From Bacilli bacterium (lineage in GTDB: Bacteria > Bacillota_I > Bacilli_A > RF39 > UBA660): DNA of 37,725 nt. The DNA is taken from assembly GCA_017406955.1 (NCBI GenBank), contig JAFQXM010000010.1:1-37725 (forward strand), read 5' to 3'. The position numbers and the translations under genes are program-made. Shown here one piece after another: positions 4,793 to 37,725 of this stretch. Under the pieces are notes generated by a model. That model did no database searches. It was not told the DNA's origin and saw only the letters and a program-made list of their open reading frames with translations. Numbering within the stretch: position 1 is the stretch's first letter; every line of letters starts with the position of its first letter.

Positions 4793-7420
4793 ATGACAAA
4801 ATGGGTTTACCTATTTACAGAAGGTAATGCTGATATGAGAAACCTTCTTGGAGGAAAAGGAGCTAATTTAGCAGAAATGACTAATATTGGATTACCAGTA
4901 CCTCAAGGTTTCACAATTACAACTGAGGCTTGTACTCAATATTATGAAGATGGAAGAGAAATTAACGATGAAATACAAGGACAAATTAATGAGTATATCG
5001 TTAAGATGGAAGAAATTACAGGGAAGAAATTTGGAGATAAAGAAAATCCATTATTAGTTTCTGTAAGAAGTGGTGCGAGAGCTTCAATGCCTGGTATGAT
5101 GGATACTATTCTTAATTTAGGTTTAAATGAAGAAGTAGTAGAAGTTATTGCGGAAAAATCTAATAATCCTAGATGGGCATGGGATTGCTACAGAAGATTT
5201 ATTCAAATGTATTCTGATGTAGTTATGGAAGTTGGTAAGAAATATTTTGAAGAACTTATTGACGAAATGAAAGATAAAAAAGGTGTTAAAGATGATATTG
5301 ATCTAGATGCTGATGACTTAAAAGAGTTAGCAGATCAATTTAAAGCTTCATATAAAGAAAAAGTAGGAGAAGAATTCCCAACTGATCCTAAAGAACAATT
5401 AATGGGAGCTATTAAAGCTGTATTTAGATCATGGGATAATCCAAGAGCTAATGTTTATAGAAGAGATAACGATATTCCTTATTCTTGGGGAACTGCTGTA
5501 AATGTTCAATCAATGGCATTTGGTAATATGGGAGATGACTGTGGTACAGGTGTTGCATTTACAAGAGATCCAGCTACTGGAGATAAAGGTTTATTTGGTG
5601 AATTCTTAACTAATGCACAAGGTGAAGATGTTGTTGCTGGAGTACGTACTCCAATGCATATATCTGAAATGGAAGATAAATTTCCAGAAGCATTTAAAGA
5701 ATTTAAAGATGTTTGTAAAACTCTAGAAGATCACTATAGAGATATGCAAGATATGGAATTTACTGTTGAACATGGTAAGTTATATATGTTACAAACTAGA
5801 AATGGAAAAAGAACTGCTCAAGCTGCATTAAAGATTGCTTGTGACTTAGTTGATGAAGGAATGAGAACTGAAGCTGAAGCAGTTGCTATGATAGATCCAA
5901 GAAATTTAGATACATTATTACATCCACAATTTGATGCTAAAGCATTAAAAGAGGCTACTCCAATTGGAAAAGGGTTAGGAGCTTCACCTGGAGCTGCTTG
6001 TGGTAAAGTTGTATTTACTGCAGATGATGCTGCAGAATGGAATGAAAACGGAGAAAAAGTTGTACTAGTCCGTTTAGAAACATCTCCTGAAGATATTACA
6101 GGTATGAAAGCTTCTCAAGGTATCTTAACAGTTCGTGGAGGTATGACTTCACATGCTGCAGTTGTTGCTCGTGGTATGGGAACTTGCTGTGTATCTGGTT
6201 GTGGAGATATCGCAATGGATGAAGCAAATAAGAAGTTTACTTTAGATGGTAAAACATTTAAAGAAGGAGATTATATATCAATTGATGGATCAACTGGTAA
6301 TATTTATGAAGGAATTATTCCTACAGTTGATGCTACTATCGCTGGAGAATTTGGAAGAGTTATGAAGTGGGCTGATGAAATTAGAACACTTAAAGTTAGA
6401 ACTAATGCTGATACACCAGCTGATGCTAAGAAAGCTCGTGAATTAGGAGCAGAAGGTATTGGACTTTGCCGTACAGAGCATATGTTCTTTGAAGAAGATA
6501 GAATTGCTGCTTTCCGTGAAATGATTTGTGCTGATACAGTTGAAGAGCGAGTTGCTGCACTAGATAAGATCCTACCTTATCAACAAGGTGACTTTGAAGA
6601 ATTATATGAAGCTTTAGAAGGATATCCAGTTACTATACGTTTCTTAGATCCACCACTACATGAGTTTGTACCAACTGAAGAAGCAGATATTAAGAAGTTA
6701 GCTGATGCTCAAGGTAAGAGTGTGGAAGATATTAAGACATTAATTGATTCATTACATGAATTCAATCCAATGATGGGACACAGAGGTTGTAGACTTGCTG
6801 TTACTTATCCAGAAATAGCTAAGATGCAAACAAGAGCTATCATTAGAGCGGCTATTAATGTTAAGAAAAATCATCCTGATTGGGATATTAAACCAGAAAT
6901 TATGATTCCACTTATTTGTGAAGTTAAGGAATTAAAATATGTTAAGAATGTTGTAGTTGAAACTGCAGATGAAGAAATTAAAAATGCTAATTCTGACTTA
7001 GAATATGAAGTTGGAACTATGATTGAAATTCCTCGTGCTGCATTAACTGCAGATGAAATAGCTAAAGAAGCAGACTTCTTCTGTTTCGGAACAAATGATT
7101 TAACTCAAATGACATTTGGTTTCTCAAGAGATGATGCTGGTAAGTTCTTAGATGCTTACTATGATGCTAAAATCTTTGAAAATGATCCATTTGCTAAGTT
7201 AGATCAAACTGGTGTTGGTAAATTAATGGAAACTGCTGTTAAATTAGGTAAACCAGTTAATAAAAATTTACATGTTGGTATTTGTGGAGAACATGGTGGA
7301 GATCCTACATCTGTAGAATTCTGTCATGAAATTGGACTTGATTATGTATCTTGTTCACCATTTAGAGTACCAATCGCAAGATTAGCTGCTGCTCAAGCTG
7401 CAATCAAAGATGAAAAATAA
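4793..7420 (+). CDS. ppdK: Pyruvate, phosphate dikinase
   Basis: PPDK interconverts pyruvate + ATP + Pi with PEP + AMP + PPi. In fermentative gut bacteria it often runs glycolytically with PPi. The 875 residues match the family length. An N-terminal ATP-grasp region (about 1-340) is followed by the swivelling phosphohistidine domain with GGMTSHAAV (catalytic H454) and a C-terminal PEP/pyruvate TIM barrel with RTEHMFF and GICGEHGGDP (catalytic C831). A regulatory Thr (T452) lies two residues before the histidine. Codon choice is visibly less A+T-biased than in neighbours, consistent with high expression. It is monocistronic with its own promoter and terminator; its 3' end is duplicated about 1 kb downstream. 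Confidence 0.98.
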   Translation: MTKWVYLFTEGNADMRNLLGGKGANLAEMTNIGLPVPQGFTITTEACTQYYEDGREINDEIQGQINEYIVKMEEITGKKFGDKENPLLVSVRSGARASMPGMMDTILNLGLNEEVVEVIAEKSNNPRWAWDCYRRFIQMYSDVVMEVGKKYFEELIDEMKDKKGVKDDIDLDADDLKELADQFKASYKEKVGEEFPTDPKEQLMGAIKAVFRSWDNPRANVYRRDNDIPYSWGTAVNVQSMAFGNMGDDCGTGVAFTRDPATGDKGLFGEFLTNAQGEDVVAGVRTPMHISEMEDKFPEAFKEFKDVCKTLEDHYRDMQDMEFTVEHGKLYMLQTRNGKRTAQAALKIACDLVDEGMRTEAEAVAMIDPRNLDTLLHPQFDAKALKEATPIGKGLGASPGAACGKVVFTADDAAEWNENGEKVVLVRLETSPEDITGMKASQGILTVRGGMTSHAAVVARGMGTCCVSGCGDIAMDEANKKFTLDGKTFKEGDYISIDGSTGNIYEGIIPTVDATIAGEFGRVMKWADEIRTLKVRTNADTPADAKKARELGAEGIGLCRTEHMFFEEDRIAAFREMICADTVEERVAALDKILPYQQGDFEELYEALEGYPVTIRFLDPPLHEFVPTEEADIKKLADAQGKSVEDIKTLIDSLHEFNPMMGHRGCRLAVTYPEIAKMQTRAIIRAAINVKKNHPDWDIKPEIMIPLICEVKELKYVKNVVVETADEEIKNANSDLEYEVGTMIEIPRAALTADEIAKEADFFCFGTNDLTQMTFGFSRDDAGKFLDAYYDAKIFENDPFAKLDQTGVGKLMETAVKLGKPVNKNLHVGICGEHGGDPTSVEFCHEIGLDYVSCSPFRVPIARLAAAQAAIKDEK

Positions 7421-12246: not shown

Positions 12247-13500
12247 ATGTATAAAGAAGAATATGAAGATAGAGGATTTCCATTTAGAGATTTTTTACTT
12301 AAGCTAATTTTAATAGTATTATGTGTATTTTTACTGTTATGGTTTGTACCAAAATTTATTACTATGAATAAGAATAAATGTGATAATAAGTGTATTAGTG
12401 AAAAACAAAATAAAGCTCTTTCTAATGATTTAGATAAAATGAAAAGAGCAGGTTTAACTTATTTTACTGAAGATAGGACTCCAAAGAATAATGGAGAGTC
12501 TATTACTCTTAGTTTAAAAGATATGATTAATAAAAATATTGTATCTATTAAAAATGCTAATAATGTGAAATATGATTTAACTAAAAGTTATATAAAATTA
12601 TCAAAAACTGATAATGAATATTTAATGAAAGTTAAATTGAAATCTAATAAGGGTTTAAAACAAACTGTTTTACATTTAAATAATTATTCTTATTGTGATA
12701 TTTATTTATGTGAAAAGGATAATAAAAAAGAAGAAAAGAAAAATGATTCTGTTGATAGTAAAACTGACACTCATGTTAGAAATATAAAAACTAAAACAAA
12801 TATTATAAAAAAGAAAACTAAAACAATTAAAAAATATAAAAGTTATAAATATAAGTATGTTAAATATATTAAATCTAAATTTTCTAATTGGTCTAAATGG
12901 TCTGATTGGAGTGTTGCAGATTGTAGTACTAAAAAAGTCACTTGTAGTGATGATAGTATATCATGTTTAAAAAAGGTACAAAGATATGATAAAAAGGAAC
13001 AAATAGGTACTACTACTAAAAAATATTCTTATGATAGAACTATTATTAAATACTGTAATACTTTTAATAAAACAGTATGTAATAGTGGTAATTATATATT
13101 TTTAGATAATAAATTATATAAAACTTCTACTAGTTATAATTTTACTTTAGTTGAGAAGAATAAATTATTCAATAATATTCCAACTGATAATTTATATTAT
13201 CATTATCAATTTGTAAGTAAAAATCATTATAATGTTTATAAATATAATGGTACTATTACTGAAGTAGTTTCTAGTAGTTGCGATAGACCTATAATTGTAA
13301 AAGTTCCAGTTTATAAGTATGAAAATATTAAAGATATAGAATTTGTTAAAGAGCCAGTATATAAAACTACTTGTTATCAAAGTGTTAAAACTAGAAAATT
13401 AATTAATAAGGGTAAAGTATTAATTAAATGGAGTAAATATAATGATAAAGGTTTATTGAATAGTGGTTGGACATTAACAAAAACTAAAAAGAGAGTCTAG
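12247..13500 (+). CDS. Single-pass membrane protein with a thrombospondin-like WSKWSDW motif
   Basis: Unassigned, 417 residues. A short cytoplasmic N-terminus, a helix at about 16-38 and a long outside region follow. The outside part has a mixed domain to about 155, a very basic Lys/Thr linker (about 155-210), then SNWSKWSDWSVADCS (WSKWSDW at 215-221). That resembles the tryptophan ladder at the start of thrombospondin type 1 repeats, and a cluster of cysteines follows. A second aromatic segment near the C-terminus has KWSKYNDKGLL and GW. Whether this is a true TSR fold or convergence cannot be told here. It has a strong promoter and is followed 11 nt later by another single-pass membrane protein, so the two may form a complex. 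Confidence 0.8.
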   Translation: MYKEEYEDRGFPFRDFLLKLILIVLCVFLLLWFVPKFITMNKNKCDNKCISEKQNKALSNDLDKMKRAGLTYFTEDRTPKNNGESITLSLKDMINKNIVSIKNANNVKYDLTKSYIKLSKTDNEYLMKVKLKSNKGLKQTVLHLNNYSYCDIYLCEKDNKKEEKKNDSVDSKTDTHVRNIKTKTNIIKKKTKTIKKYKSYKYKYVKYIKSKFSNWSKWSDWSVADCSTKKVTCSDDSISCLKKVQRYDKKEQIGTTTKKYSYDRTIIKYCNTFNKTVCNSGNYIFLDNKLYKTSTSYNFTLVEKNKLFNNIPTDNLYYHYQFVSKNHYNVYKYNGTITEVVSSSCDRPIIVKVPVYKYENIKDIEFVKEPVYKTTCYQSVKTRKLINKGKVLIKWSKYNDKGLLNSGWTLTKTKKRV

Positions 13501-34351: not shown

Positions 34352-36004
34352 ATGAGTAAAATTAGAATATTTAGTTTAGGGGGACTTAATGAAGACGGAA
34401 AAAATATGTATATTGTTGATGTAGATGAGGAGATATATGTATTTGATGCTGGTATTAAATATGATAATGATATTAATTTGGGAATAGATTATATTATTCC
34501 GAATTTTGACTATTTAGTAGAAAATAGGAAGAAAATAAAAGGTATATTTTTAACACATGGACATGATAGTAATATGGGTGCTGTTGCGGACATTTTAGAA
34601 GTGATTCCTGAAATAAATGTTTATGGAACTAAACTTACTCTAGAAATCGTTAAGAGTGAACTTAGTAATGAGGAAATTAAAAAGTATAATTTTAAAGAAA
34701 TTAGACCTCATTCTAAATTAGAATTTGGTAAAAATTATATTTTTCCTATTAGTGTAACACATTCTATACCTGATGCAGTATGTTATGTTTTATATACAGA
34801 AGATGGTGCTATTGTATATACAGGAGATTTTGTATTTGATTCTACTATGAAAGGATCATATAAAACTGATATTGGTAAACTTGCTTATGTTGGTAAACAA
34901 GGTGTTTTGTGTCTAATGGCTGAATCAATGTATGCAGATAAGGCAGGTCATACTAGTCCAAATAATAGGGTAGCTGATTTTATTAGAGAAGTTTTAAGAA
35001 AAAATGAAAATAGAATAATTGCAACTATTTTTCCAGCTCATTTTTATCGTATTCAAGAGATATTTGATGAAGTATCTAAGACACATCGAAAAATAGTTGT
35101 TATGGGTAAAAAATTACAAGAAGTAATAAATAATGCAATTGATAATAATTATTTAAGTATTGATAAGAAGAAAATTGGTAATTTAGCTGATTTAGAATTA
35201 AAAGATACAGTTATTTTAATTTCTGATGAAAAAGAAAAACCATTCGCAAACTTGGAAAGAATTATTAAAGGGTATGATAAATATATAAAAATCAAGGAAA
35301 CTGATACTATTTTTATAACAGAACCTAGTTATCCTGGTATAGAAAAAAGGACTGCAATTATTATGGATGAAATTGCGATGTTAGGGGCTAACGCAGTTAG
35401 TTTATCTAGTAAAAATCATTTGCTTCATCATGCTTCACGTGAAGATTTAATGTTGATGATTGATTTGATTAATCCAAAATATTATTTTCCAGTTAAAGGT
35501 GAGTATAGAAATCAATATGCTAATGCTGAATTGGCAGAGGAAGTTGGAATACCAAAGGAAAATATTATTTTGAAGGAAAATGGTGATGTAGTTGAGTTTG
35601 TCGGTGGAAAACTTCAAAATACTAGTGAACATATTGATGTTGATCAGATATTAGTTGATGGAAAAAATCAAGGTGATATTGGTAATTTAGTATTAAAAGA
35701 TCGAGAAATGTTAGGTGAGAATGGAATAGTTATAATTAGTTGTACGTTAGATAAATTAACAAAAACTATATTAGGTGGGCCTGAAATTTTAACTAGAGGA
35801 TTTGTTTATGTTAAAGAGAGTCAAGATTTGTTAGAAGATACTAAAGTTATTTCTAGACAAGTTATTGAAGATAACATTGAACCTGCTACAAAAAGGGTAG
35901 ATTATTCTAAAATAAAAAATGAAGTAAGAGATAAGCTAGGCAAATTTTTCTATCAAGAAACAGAAACTAGACCTATGATTATTACAGTTATTCAAGAAGT
36001 ATAG
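34352..36004 (+). CDS. rnjB: RNase J family protein, J2-like (degenerate metal motif)
   Basis: The 550-residue protein is a beta-CASP metallo-beta-lactamase nuclease of the RNase J family. It has GGLNEDGKNMYIVDVDEEIYV-type strands, the J2-like motif THGHDSNMG in place of THGHEDHIG, GDFVFD, and a C-terminal domain with GPEILTRGFVYVKESQD and a final RPMIITVIQEV. The missing Asp-His of HxHxDH and the altered later motif (LLHHAS where J1 has VSGH) match RNase J2, which forms a complex with the active J1 and has little activity alone. No rnjA lies in the window. It follows the 166-residue unknown gene by 3 nt. Confidence 0.9.
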   Translation: MSKIRIFSLGGLNEDGKNMYIVDVDEEIYVFDAGIKYDNDINLGIDYIIPNFDYLVENRKKIKGIFLTHGHDSNMGAVADILEVIPEINVYGTKLTLEIVKSELSNEEIKKYNFKEIRPHSKLEFGKNYIFPISVTHSIPDAVCYVLYTEDGAIVYTGDFVFDSTMKGSYKTDIGKLAYVGKQGVLCLMAESMYADKAGHTSPNNRVADFIREVLRKNENRIIATIFPAHFYRIQEIFDEVSKTHRKIVVMGKKLQEVINNAIDNNYLSIDKKKIGNLADLELKDTVILISDEKEKPFANLERIIKGYDKYIKIKETDTIFITEPSYPGIEKRTAIIMDEIAMLGANAVSLSSKNHLLHHASREDLMLMIDLINPKYYFPVKGEYRNQYANAELAEEVGIPKENIILKENGDVVEFVGGKLQNTSEHIDVDQILVDGKNQGDIGNLVLKDREMLGENGIVIISCTLDKLTKTILGGPEILTRGFVYVKESQDLLEDTKVISRQVIEDNIEPATKRVDYSKIKNEVRDKLGKFFYQETETRPMIITVIQEV

Positions 36005-36017
36005 GATACTTCTTTAT

Positions 36018-36094
36018 GTTTCCGTAGCTCAGCTGGATAGAGCAATCGCCTCCTAAGCGATAGGTCGGGAGTTCGAATCTCCCCGGGAACACCA
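36018..36094 (+). tRNA. tRNA-Arg (anticodon CCU)
   Basis: The 77-nt cloverleaf has an acceptor stem GTTTCCG (36018-36024) pairing with CGGGAAC (36084-36090, one G-U pair) and D stem GCTC/GAGC. The anticodon stem ATCGC/GCGAT encloses loop CTCCTAA with anticodon CCT (36052-36054). The T arm is GGGAG-TTCGAAT-CTCCC, then discriminator A and encoded CCA (36092-36094). It reads AGG arginine codons. A T-run follows directly and probably ends transcription. It starts 13 nt after rnjB and may share its transcript. Confidence 0.96.
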
Positions 36095-36291: not shown

Positions 36292-37725
36292 ATGAATAAA
36301 TTATTTAAAAGTGTTTTAGCACTAATATTAGTAGTTGCAATATCTTGCTTCGGTATTGTAAACGTTAATGCAAAATCATTAAAAATTACTAAAAAAACTT
36401 ATATTAAGACTGGAATCGGAAGCAGAAAGGAAGCTAAGTTTTATACTAGTAAAGGATATGCTTATTGTATTACTCCTATGAAAACTGGAGCTAATCAAGG
36501 TACTACTTTATATTATAAGAATACTATTCATAATGGTGGATTAGTATGGTTAATAGAAAATGGTGGTCATAGTGATAAGGCTTATTTAGCTACTCAAATA
36601 GCTATATGGAAACATTATAATAATTATATGCCTGCTGTTTATAAAAACCATCCTGGTAATAGTGCAGTTAAAAAAGCTAAGTCATTAGCAAGTACTGCAA
36701 AATCACATAATAGTGATAATTATAAAAATCCAAGTGTAAAATTATCTATTAATAGTACTAAGATGAGTGAGGTTGAAAATGGTAAGTACTTTAAATCAGG
36801 AGCAATTACAATTAAACTTGGAAATGTATCAAGTGGAAGTATTAGTGTAACTTCACCAGCTACAATAGTAAATGGAAGTAACAAAAAAGTATCTACTGTT
36901 AAGAATGGTACTAAGGTATATGTAAGAGTGCCAGCTAGTAAAGTTACTAGTAGTAAATCATATACTGTAAAAGTGAGTGCTAGTAAGACTGTTAAAGCAG
37001 TTGAAAGATATTCACCAAAAAATAGTAAATATCAAGATTTAGCTATCGTAGTCAAAAATAAAAAATCTGATAGTGCTAAGAAAACAGTTACTGCAACACC
37101 AGTATCAAGAAAATGTCAATATGCTAATGGAAAATACTATGGTATTAATGGAACTGTTGTTGATAAGACTACATATTCAATTCAATGTGAAGAACATGAA
37201 TGTGAAAAAGTAGGAAATGTATACTTTGGAAAAGAAGGAAACCAAGTAAGTTATGATACTTTTAATAAAGAATGTAATAAACATATATGTGAAAAAGTAG
37301 GAGATACTTATTTTGGAAAAGATGGAGAAGAAGTAGACGAAGAAGAATATAATTTAGAATGTAGCGAACATAAATGTGAAGTTATTGAAGATAAGTATTT
37401 TGGTAAAAATGGTTTTGAAGTAGATGAAACTACATATGATATTGAATGTAATGAACATAAATGTCAAAAAGTAGGGGATGTATACTTTGGAAAAGATGGA
37501 ATTCAAGTAGATCAAGATACATATGATTTAGAATGTAATGAACACATTTGTGAAATTATAGGTGATAAATACTTTGGTAAAAACGGAACTGAAGTAGATG
37601 AAGTAACATATAATGCTGAATGTGTACATAAATGCCAAATTATTGGAGATAAATATTATGGAGAAACTGGTGAAGAAGTAACTAGTGAGCAATATAAAGA
37701 ACAATGTACACACTCTTGTGAAATA
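36292..37725 (+). CDS. Thioester-domain surface adhesin with Cys/His repeats (3' end outside window)
   Basis: The reading frame is open to the window end (478 codons). A signal peptide (1-27, cleavage likely after NVNA) precedes a thioester domain (about 50-130). Its YAYCITP (C59) and ATQIAIW (Q102) are the Cys-Gln pair and TQxA motif that form an internal thioester in Gram-positive adhesins, able to bind host amines covalently. Residues about 145-260 form a beta-rich stalk domain, Ser/Thr/Lys-rich. From C275 tandem repeats of 29 residues follow, each with YFGK-G-V-D-Y and ending C-x2-H-x-C into the next unit. The wall anchor must lie beyond the window. It has its own strong promoter and is likely a host- or matrix-binding surface protein. 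Confidence 0.85.
   Translation, partial: MNKLFKSVLALILVVAISCFGIVNVNAKSLKITKKTYIKTGIGSRKEAKFYTSKGYAYCITPMKTGANQGTTLYYKNTIHNGGLVWLIENGGHSDKAYLATQIAIWKHYNNYMPAVYKNHPGNSAVKKAKSLASTAKSHNSDNYKNPSVKLSINSTKMSEVENGKYFKSGAITIKLGNVSSGSISVTSPATIVNGSNKKVSTVKNGTKVYVRVPASKVTSSKSYTVKVSASKTVKAVERYSPKNSKYQDLAIVVKNKKSDSAKKTVTATPVSRKCQYANGKYYGINGTVVDKTTYSIQCEEHECEKVGNVYFGKEGNQVSYDTFNKECNKHICEKVGDTYFGKDGEEVDEEEYNLECSEHKCEVIEDKYFGKNGFEVDETTYDIECNEHKCQKVGDVYFGKDGIQVDQDTYDLECNEHICEIIGDKYFGKNGTEVDEVTYNAECVHKCQIIGDKYYGETGEEVTSEQYKEQCTHSCEI
37114..37725 (+). repeat. Tandem 87-nt repeats encoding 29-residue Cys/His units
   Basis: Units begin with Cys at residues 275, 304, 333, 362, 391 and 420 (period 29 residues, 87 nt). 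Two 28-residue steps then bring Cys 448 and 476. Each unit has the pattern C-[EQ]-x-x-x-x-x-Y-[FY]-G-K-x-G-x-x-V-x5-x-x-C, and the linker C-x2-H-x-C (C-x-H-x-C in the shortened units) joins units. The array is cut by the window end. Confidence 0.9.

Follow-up and report, generated by a model that had tools for sequence, protein, structure and literature searches.

The gene at the right end of the 37,725-nucleotide window (the whole stretch of DNA analysed here, which is all of contig C8 in a genome of 1.14 Mb, 15 contigs and 93.7% completeness) encodes a known kind of thioester domain (TED) adhesin that carries an uncatalogued, lineage-restricted stalk repeat (Table 1). Taken as a whole, the protein is probably a sortase-anchored, TIE-like adhesin, whose stalk consists of mini-domains that are each closed by a disulfide within the unit.

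According to this explanation, the bearer would be an uncultured gut lineage of Bacilli/Tenericutes, whose distal class II thioester domain would use C59-Q248 to acylate an amine of a surface protein of the host or of a neighbouring cell, while a stalk of 29-residue mini-domains would hold the head out from the wall. Each mini-domain would be formed by a beta-hairpin and a short helix and looped shut by its own first and last Cys, most likely through a disulfide. The number of units would set the length of the stalk, which would stand where other TIE proteins have Ig-like domains with isopeptide or ester bonds. Adhesion as such, like its target, is presumed.

Table 1. Features of the adhesin gene, in window coordinates
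Feature	Position	Strand	Remarks
TED adhesin gene	36292..37725	+	478 codons; 3' end lost at contig end
Signal peptide, residues 1-28	36292..36375	+	assigned by eye (MNKLFKSVLALILVVAISCFGIVNVNAK); low-confidence model helix 4-16
Class II thioester domain, residues ~29-272	36376..37107	+	Pfam TED, AlphaFold2, Foldseek, VIA-align
Cys59, thioester Cys (YCIT)	36466..36468	+	24/24 aligned TEDs; motif from PMC6194298
Gln102 of TQIAIW, supporting TQxxPhiW motif	36595..36597	+	kept in 23/24 TEDs
Gln248 (YQDLA), predicted thioester-forming Gln, P/Q hairpin tip	37033..37035	+	24/24 TEDs; motif; model
Stalk: seven complete C-x23-C beta-beta-alpha units, residues 275-472	37114..37707	+	
Last linker (THS) and start of unit 8 (C476), cut by contig end	37708..37725	+	

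The thioester head

The Pfam TED profile matched residues 57-130 with 25.4 bits, against a gathering cut-off of 22; the relative L044 scored 44.3 bits, and some close orthologues fell slightly under the cut-off. The AlphaFold2 model of the head, built on a five-row alignment, had a mean pLDDT of 81, with most ten-residue blocks between residues 51 and 270 near or above 90, and exhibited a beta-sandwich insert (about 148-221) followed by a long P/Q-like hairpin (strands 222-242 and 250-268). Foldseek matched this model to the TIE protein of B. anthracis (BaTIE, 6fwv; E 4e-14), TIE86 of E. faecium (EfmTIE86, 6fwy; E 4e-13), and the TIE protein of S. aureus (SaTIE, 6fx6; E 3e-5). VIA-align gave Z scores of 16.9 and 16.1 with the class II TED structures 6fwv and 6fwy, and the score of 16.9 spans 233 residues (28-270) of the head. 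The Pfam score, the Cys and Gln motifs, and the insert with its P/Q hairpin are thus all found in the window protein as in class II TEDs.

The class II TEDs of TIE proteins (6fwv, 6fwy, and 6fx6; PMC6194298) share with the window head the predicted fold over residues ~28-271, the YC motif, the TQxxW motif, the late PhiQzetaPhiPhi Gln and the N-terminal position, at an identity of about 16-20% only. TIE proteins also resemble the orthologues of the window protein in the sortase-type anchor. In contrast, their stalk is built of CnaB isopeptide or ester Ig-like domains, and the window stalk is neither: it has no CnaB or other Pfam match, and the isopeptide or ester Ig-like stalk by which TIE proteins are recognised was not found in it. 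The covalent thioester adhesin that a sequence-only reading of this DNA had proposed is supported by the Pfam match, the class II fold and the anchor of the orthologues.

The same reading had taken C59 and Q102 as the thioester pair. In class II TEDs, the Gln that forms the bond belongs to a weak PhiQzetaPhiPhi motif of strand Q; the Gln and Trp of the TQxxPhiW motif are conserved and inessential for the thioester bond (PMC6194298). The sole PhiQzetaPhiPhi match in the window protein is YQDLA, whose Q248 sits between the two strands of the modelled hairpin. In an alignment of 24 TEDs of the bacterial family, from which one unrelated ORF had been set aside, W106 is invariant together with C59 and Q248. 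Because of the published motif roles, the invariance of Q248 and its being the only match, we predict the pair to be C59-Q248 instead of C59-Q102; the thioester domain and its Cys therefore stand, whereas the Gln partner is replaced. Thioester formation itself is presumed for the window protein.

At the position of Q102, a tandem paralogue in locus L041 (L041:5814-7274) has Arg, its TQxxW motif reading TRIAVW, and is thus a natural variant of the supporting Gln with an intact thioester Cys and late Gln. The idea that the change from TQ to TR abolishes the thioester of this paralogue was dropped, since both of these residues are intact (PMC6194298).

The stalk repeat and its distribution

The units of the window protein start at C275, C304, C333, C362, C391, C420, and C448, and an eighth begins at C476. 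The junctions read CEEHEC, CNKHIC, CSEHKC, CNEHKC, CNEHIC, CVHKC, and CTHSC; the first five are C-x2-H-x-C and the last two C-x-H-x-C. The 29-residue units with C-x2-H-x-C junctions described from the sequence alone are therefore real and number seven, except that the last two junctions are one residue shorter. His is present in 7/7 junctions; 20,000 shuffles of the region contained on average 0.07 matches to C-x1/2-H-x-C and never more than 3, which indicates that this pattern did not arise by chance.

For four window units, AlphaFold2 (31-row alignment) gave a pLDDT of 90.7 and a pTM of 0.54, and each modelled unit exhibited the same beta-beta-alpha pattern (strands 2-4 and 7-9, a short one at 15-16, and a helix at 18-25); the relative placement of the units is uncertain because of the low pTM. 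The structure prediction that had been put forward as a check thus gave a beta-hairpin and a helix per unit.

No curated family of Pfam or NCBIfam covers the unit, no sequence or fold match to it was found in the PDB (Foldseek, VIA-align), and our literature search yielded no description of the repeat; the stalk therefore lies outside the usual repeat families, as had been supposed; that the fold is new does not follow from the lack of a match. Choline-binding, CROP, and PhtA folds were rejected as homologues, Foldseek reaching E 0.2 at best and VIA-align staying under Z 2, and weak Pfam matches of single units (MORN_2, KOW, and similar, each in <=4/32 members) were treated as chance.

A profile of two units detected the repeat in 91/386 genomes of the window's bacterial family, about a quarter, belonging to 45/150 genera. 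Among 392 phylum-wide genomes it was detected in five, all within the family, and in none of the ~370 outside it. The unit appears to be an uncatalogued stalk repeat restricted to one bacterial family. The collected set comprised 43 proteins with 234 units, and units with a Cys-Cys spacing of 24 had the consensus C-E-I/K-V-D/N-G-K-Y-Y-G-K-N/D-G-N-E-V-T/D/S-E/K-x-T/E-Y-x-K-E-C. In repeat-less TED adhesins of the family, the TED Cys is mostly the only one beyond the signal peptide, but in the repeat-bearing adhesins each unit brings two more; the extra Cys therefore accompany the repeat. One repeat-less TED adhesin (L039) has, by eye, apparently repeated SpaA/CnaB-like domains.

What emerges appears to be a minimal 25-residue, Cys-closed stalk module, common to adhesins with different heads, in a family of small-genome gut Bacilli. 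Among known surface proteins, choline-binding repeats are alike in having short repeated units and were the top Foldseek rows (LytB 7pl5, LytA 4iwt), but with E values of 0.2 or worse and TM-scores <=0.2 they are not a real match. To our knowledge, choline-binding repeats have no conserved Cys pair. InlJ, a leucine-rich repeat protein of the Gram-positive surface with a regular series of cysteines, is alike in having regular cysteines along a surface repeat protein, whereas in the window stalk each beta-beta-alpha unit stands by itself and has its own Cys pair; a cysteine ladder of InlJ is named in a title cited in PMC9210967. The giant TIE adhesin of Mobiluncus mulieris (PMC10619420) likewise has a TED head, repeated stalk domains, and disulfides. 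In contrast to the 25-residue Cys-capped mini-domains of the window stalk, its disulfide lies inside a large Ig-like isopeptide domain.

Pairing of the cysteines

Both cysteines are kept in 231/234 units. Their spacing within the 234 units is 24 in 172, 25 in 49, and 23-30 in the rest, whereas the 188 linkers between units, from 39 proteins, vary from 2 to 10 residues. The N-terminal Cys of the first unit and the C-terminal Cys of the last unit are each present in 43/43 proteins, and the single-unit proteins (n = 4) keep both cysteines in 4/4. The fixed spacing inside units, the variable linkers, and the outer and single-unit Cys that are never lost suggest that the Cys pair belongs within one unit, where it would form a disulfide; an inter-unit ladder or a metal site at the junction would predict the opposite pattern.

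The disulfide ladder that the sequence-only reading had considered, a chain cross-linked by bonds between the last Cys of each unit and the first of the following one, is very unlikely. In its favour, the Cys flanking a junction are just 4-5 residues apart in the window, but a ladder would leave the array-end and single-unit Cys unpaired, and linker length shows no constraint.

The shared Cys-Cys-His metal site of that reading fares no better. Zinc (or iron) bound between neighbouring units by a Cys of each and the junction His, stiffening or gating the stalk, would be in line with the His of all window junctions, with its presence in 8/8 and 5/5 junctions of the two L041 stalks and in 7/9 of L042, and with the lack of a classical Dsb system among the genes found in the genome. 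Across the family, however, His occurs in only 86/188 linkers (46%), with Asn and Pro as substitutes (H 69, N 31, and P 16 at position 3 of 4-residue linkers), so that the ligands are not conserved family-wide. The linkers also differ in length, the terminal and single units keep their Cys without a junction partner, and the zinc folds of the PDB gave no significant match to the unit. We therefore regard a metal-binding stalk as highly improbable. In the window's genus the His is nearly constant, which common descent can explain, and it is quite unlikely that redox state or metal acts there through the C-x2-H-x-C junctions to stiffen or gate the stalk.

The evidence against the disulfide reading comes from the genome and the habitat. 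DsbA, VKOR, and the DsbD transmembrane domain had no match in the window's genome, and a gut anaerobe may keep thiols reduced. These points, together with the presumably anaerobic habitat and a 174-residue, membrane-anchored, extracytoplasmic thioredoxin-like CGYC protein present in the genome, would suit a redox-switched stalk, in which cycling between thiol and disulfide with the redox state of the gut alters the stiffness or shields the thioester. Such a switch is nevertheless unlikely, since the Cys are conserved as strictly as a structural pair, free thiols beside a reactive thioester would risk self-attack, and the occurrence of the repeat is not tied to that of the CGYC gene. Relatives of the CGYC protein were found in 42/91 repeat-bearing genomes versus 170/295 others (Fisher p 0.07, in the opposite direction), and an association of this gene with the repeat across the family genomes was rejected. 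The presence of the CGYC protein would suit intra-unit disulfides too, and its lack of enrichment likewise speaks against them. The optional His, the variable linkers, and the Cys kept in single and outer units also speak against the metal- or redox-gated stalk originally envisaged, and an ordinary Cys pair inside each unit with a dispensable His is the pattern that had been named as its refutation.

If the intra-unit disulfides are true, a presumed anaerobe would have swapped isopeptide-bonded stalks for disulfide-stapled ones, without a recognised DsbA or VKOR and although anaerobes tend to keep Cys out of the proteins they export (PMC12453122).

Anchor, assembly gap and related genes

The window gene is cut by the contig end and has no xPxTG-like motif or membrane segment after its repeats; for the anchor and repeat number of the full gene, which had been named as a check, full-length orthologues serve as a guide. 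For the orthologue in a sheep-jejunum Bacilli MAG (L041:4001-5716), the identity is 84% and the number of units 9; for that in an uncultured Tenericutes MAG (L042:127-1935), the values are 63% and 10. In both, the units are followed by VPDTGSSPL, a membrane segment and a short tail. By our own reading, an xPxT-type motif and a membrane segment are present at the C-terminus of 31/43 repeat proteins, and four sortases of the window's genome score over the Pfam cut-off.

In L041, the tandem TED-repeat gene (5814-7274) follows the orthologue and is itself followed by a short-chain dehydrogenase gene and a lipoprotein gene. Contig C10 of the window's genome opens in frame with PDTGTTPLANIILTVLGLSVVAGAAGMVIRYQKING (L134:3-113), a VPDTG-type anchor tail, after which come the same dehydrogenase as in L041 (83% identical) and a similar lipoprotein gene. 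This anchor tail and the order of the downstream genes, as in L041, suggest that C8 and C10 very likely flank one assembly gap inside the adhesin locus; the C10 tail (PDTGTTPL) may be that of the window gene itself or that of a tandem copy.

Upstream of the adhesin ORF are a ribonuclease J-like gene (34352-36004, named from its sequence by eye) and a tRNA-Arg (36018-36094). Elsewhere in the window, positions 1846-2313 encode a small protein with an N-terminal membrane segment and several cysteines, and this gene adjoins a cytoplasmic-type thioredoxin gene (2276-2626).

The relative L044 (IMGVR_UViG_3300006099_000057) is a two-unit TED adhesin encoded close to the end of a contig that is classed as viral. 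A phage or plasmid origin was rejected, tblastn of phages and plasmids having given no match; one IMG/VR contig carries a relative.

Cys-capped units also occupy the central part of a second protein type (L017, L018, L076-L078, L085, and L092), which has an N-terminal membrane segment and, downstream of the units, a W-x-x-W stretch (SKWSNWS). The window gene at 12247-13500 weakly resembles this type (E 0.003) and has no units. Finally, L087:1420 (+) encodes a protein of 125 residues that consists of a signal peptide, two units and an LPDTA-type anchor, and is thus a stalk without a head.
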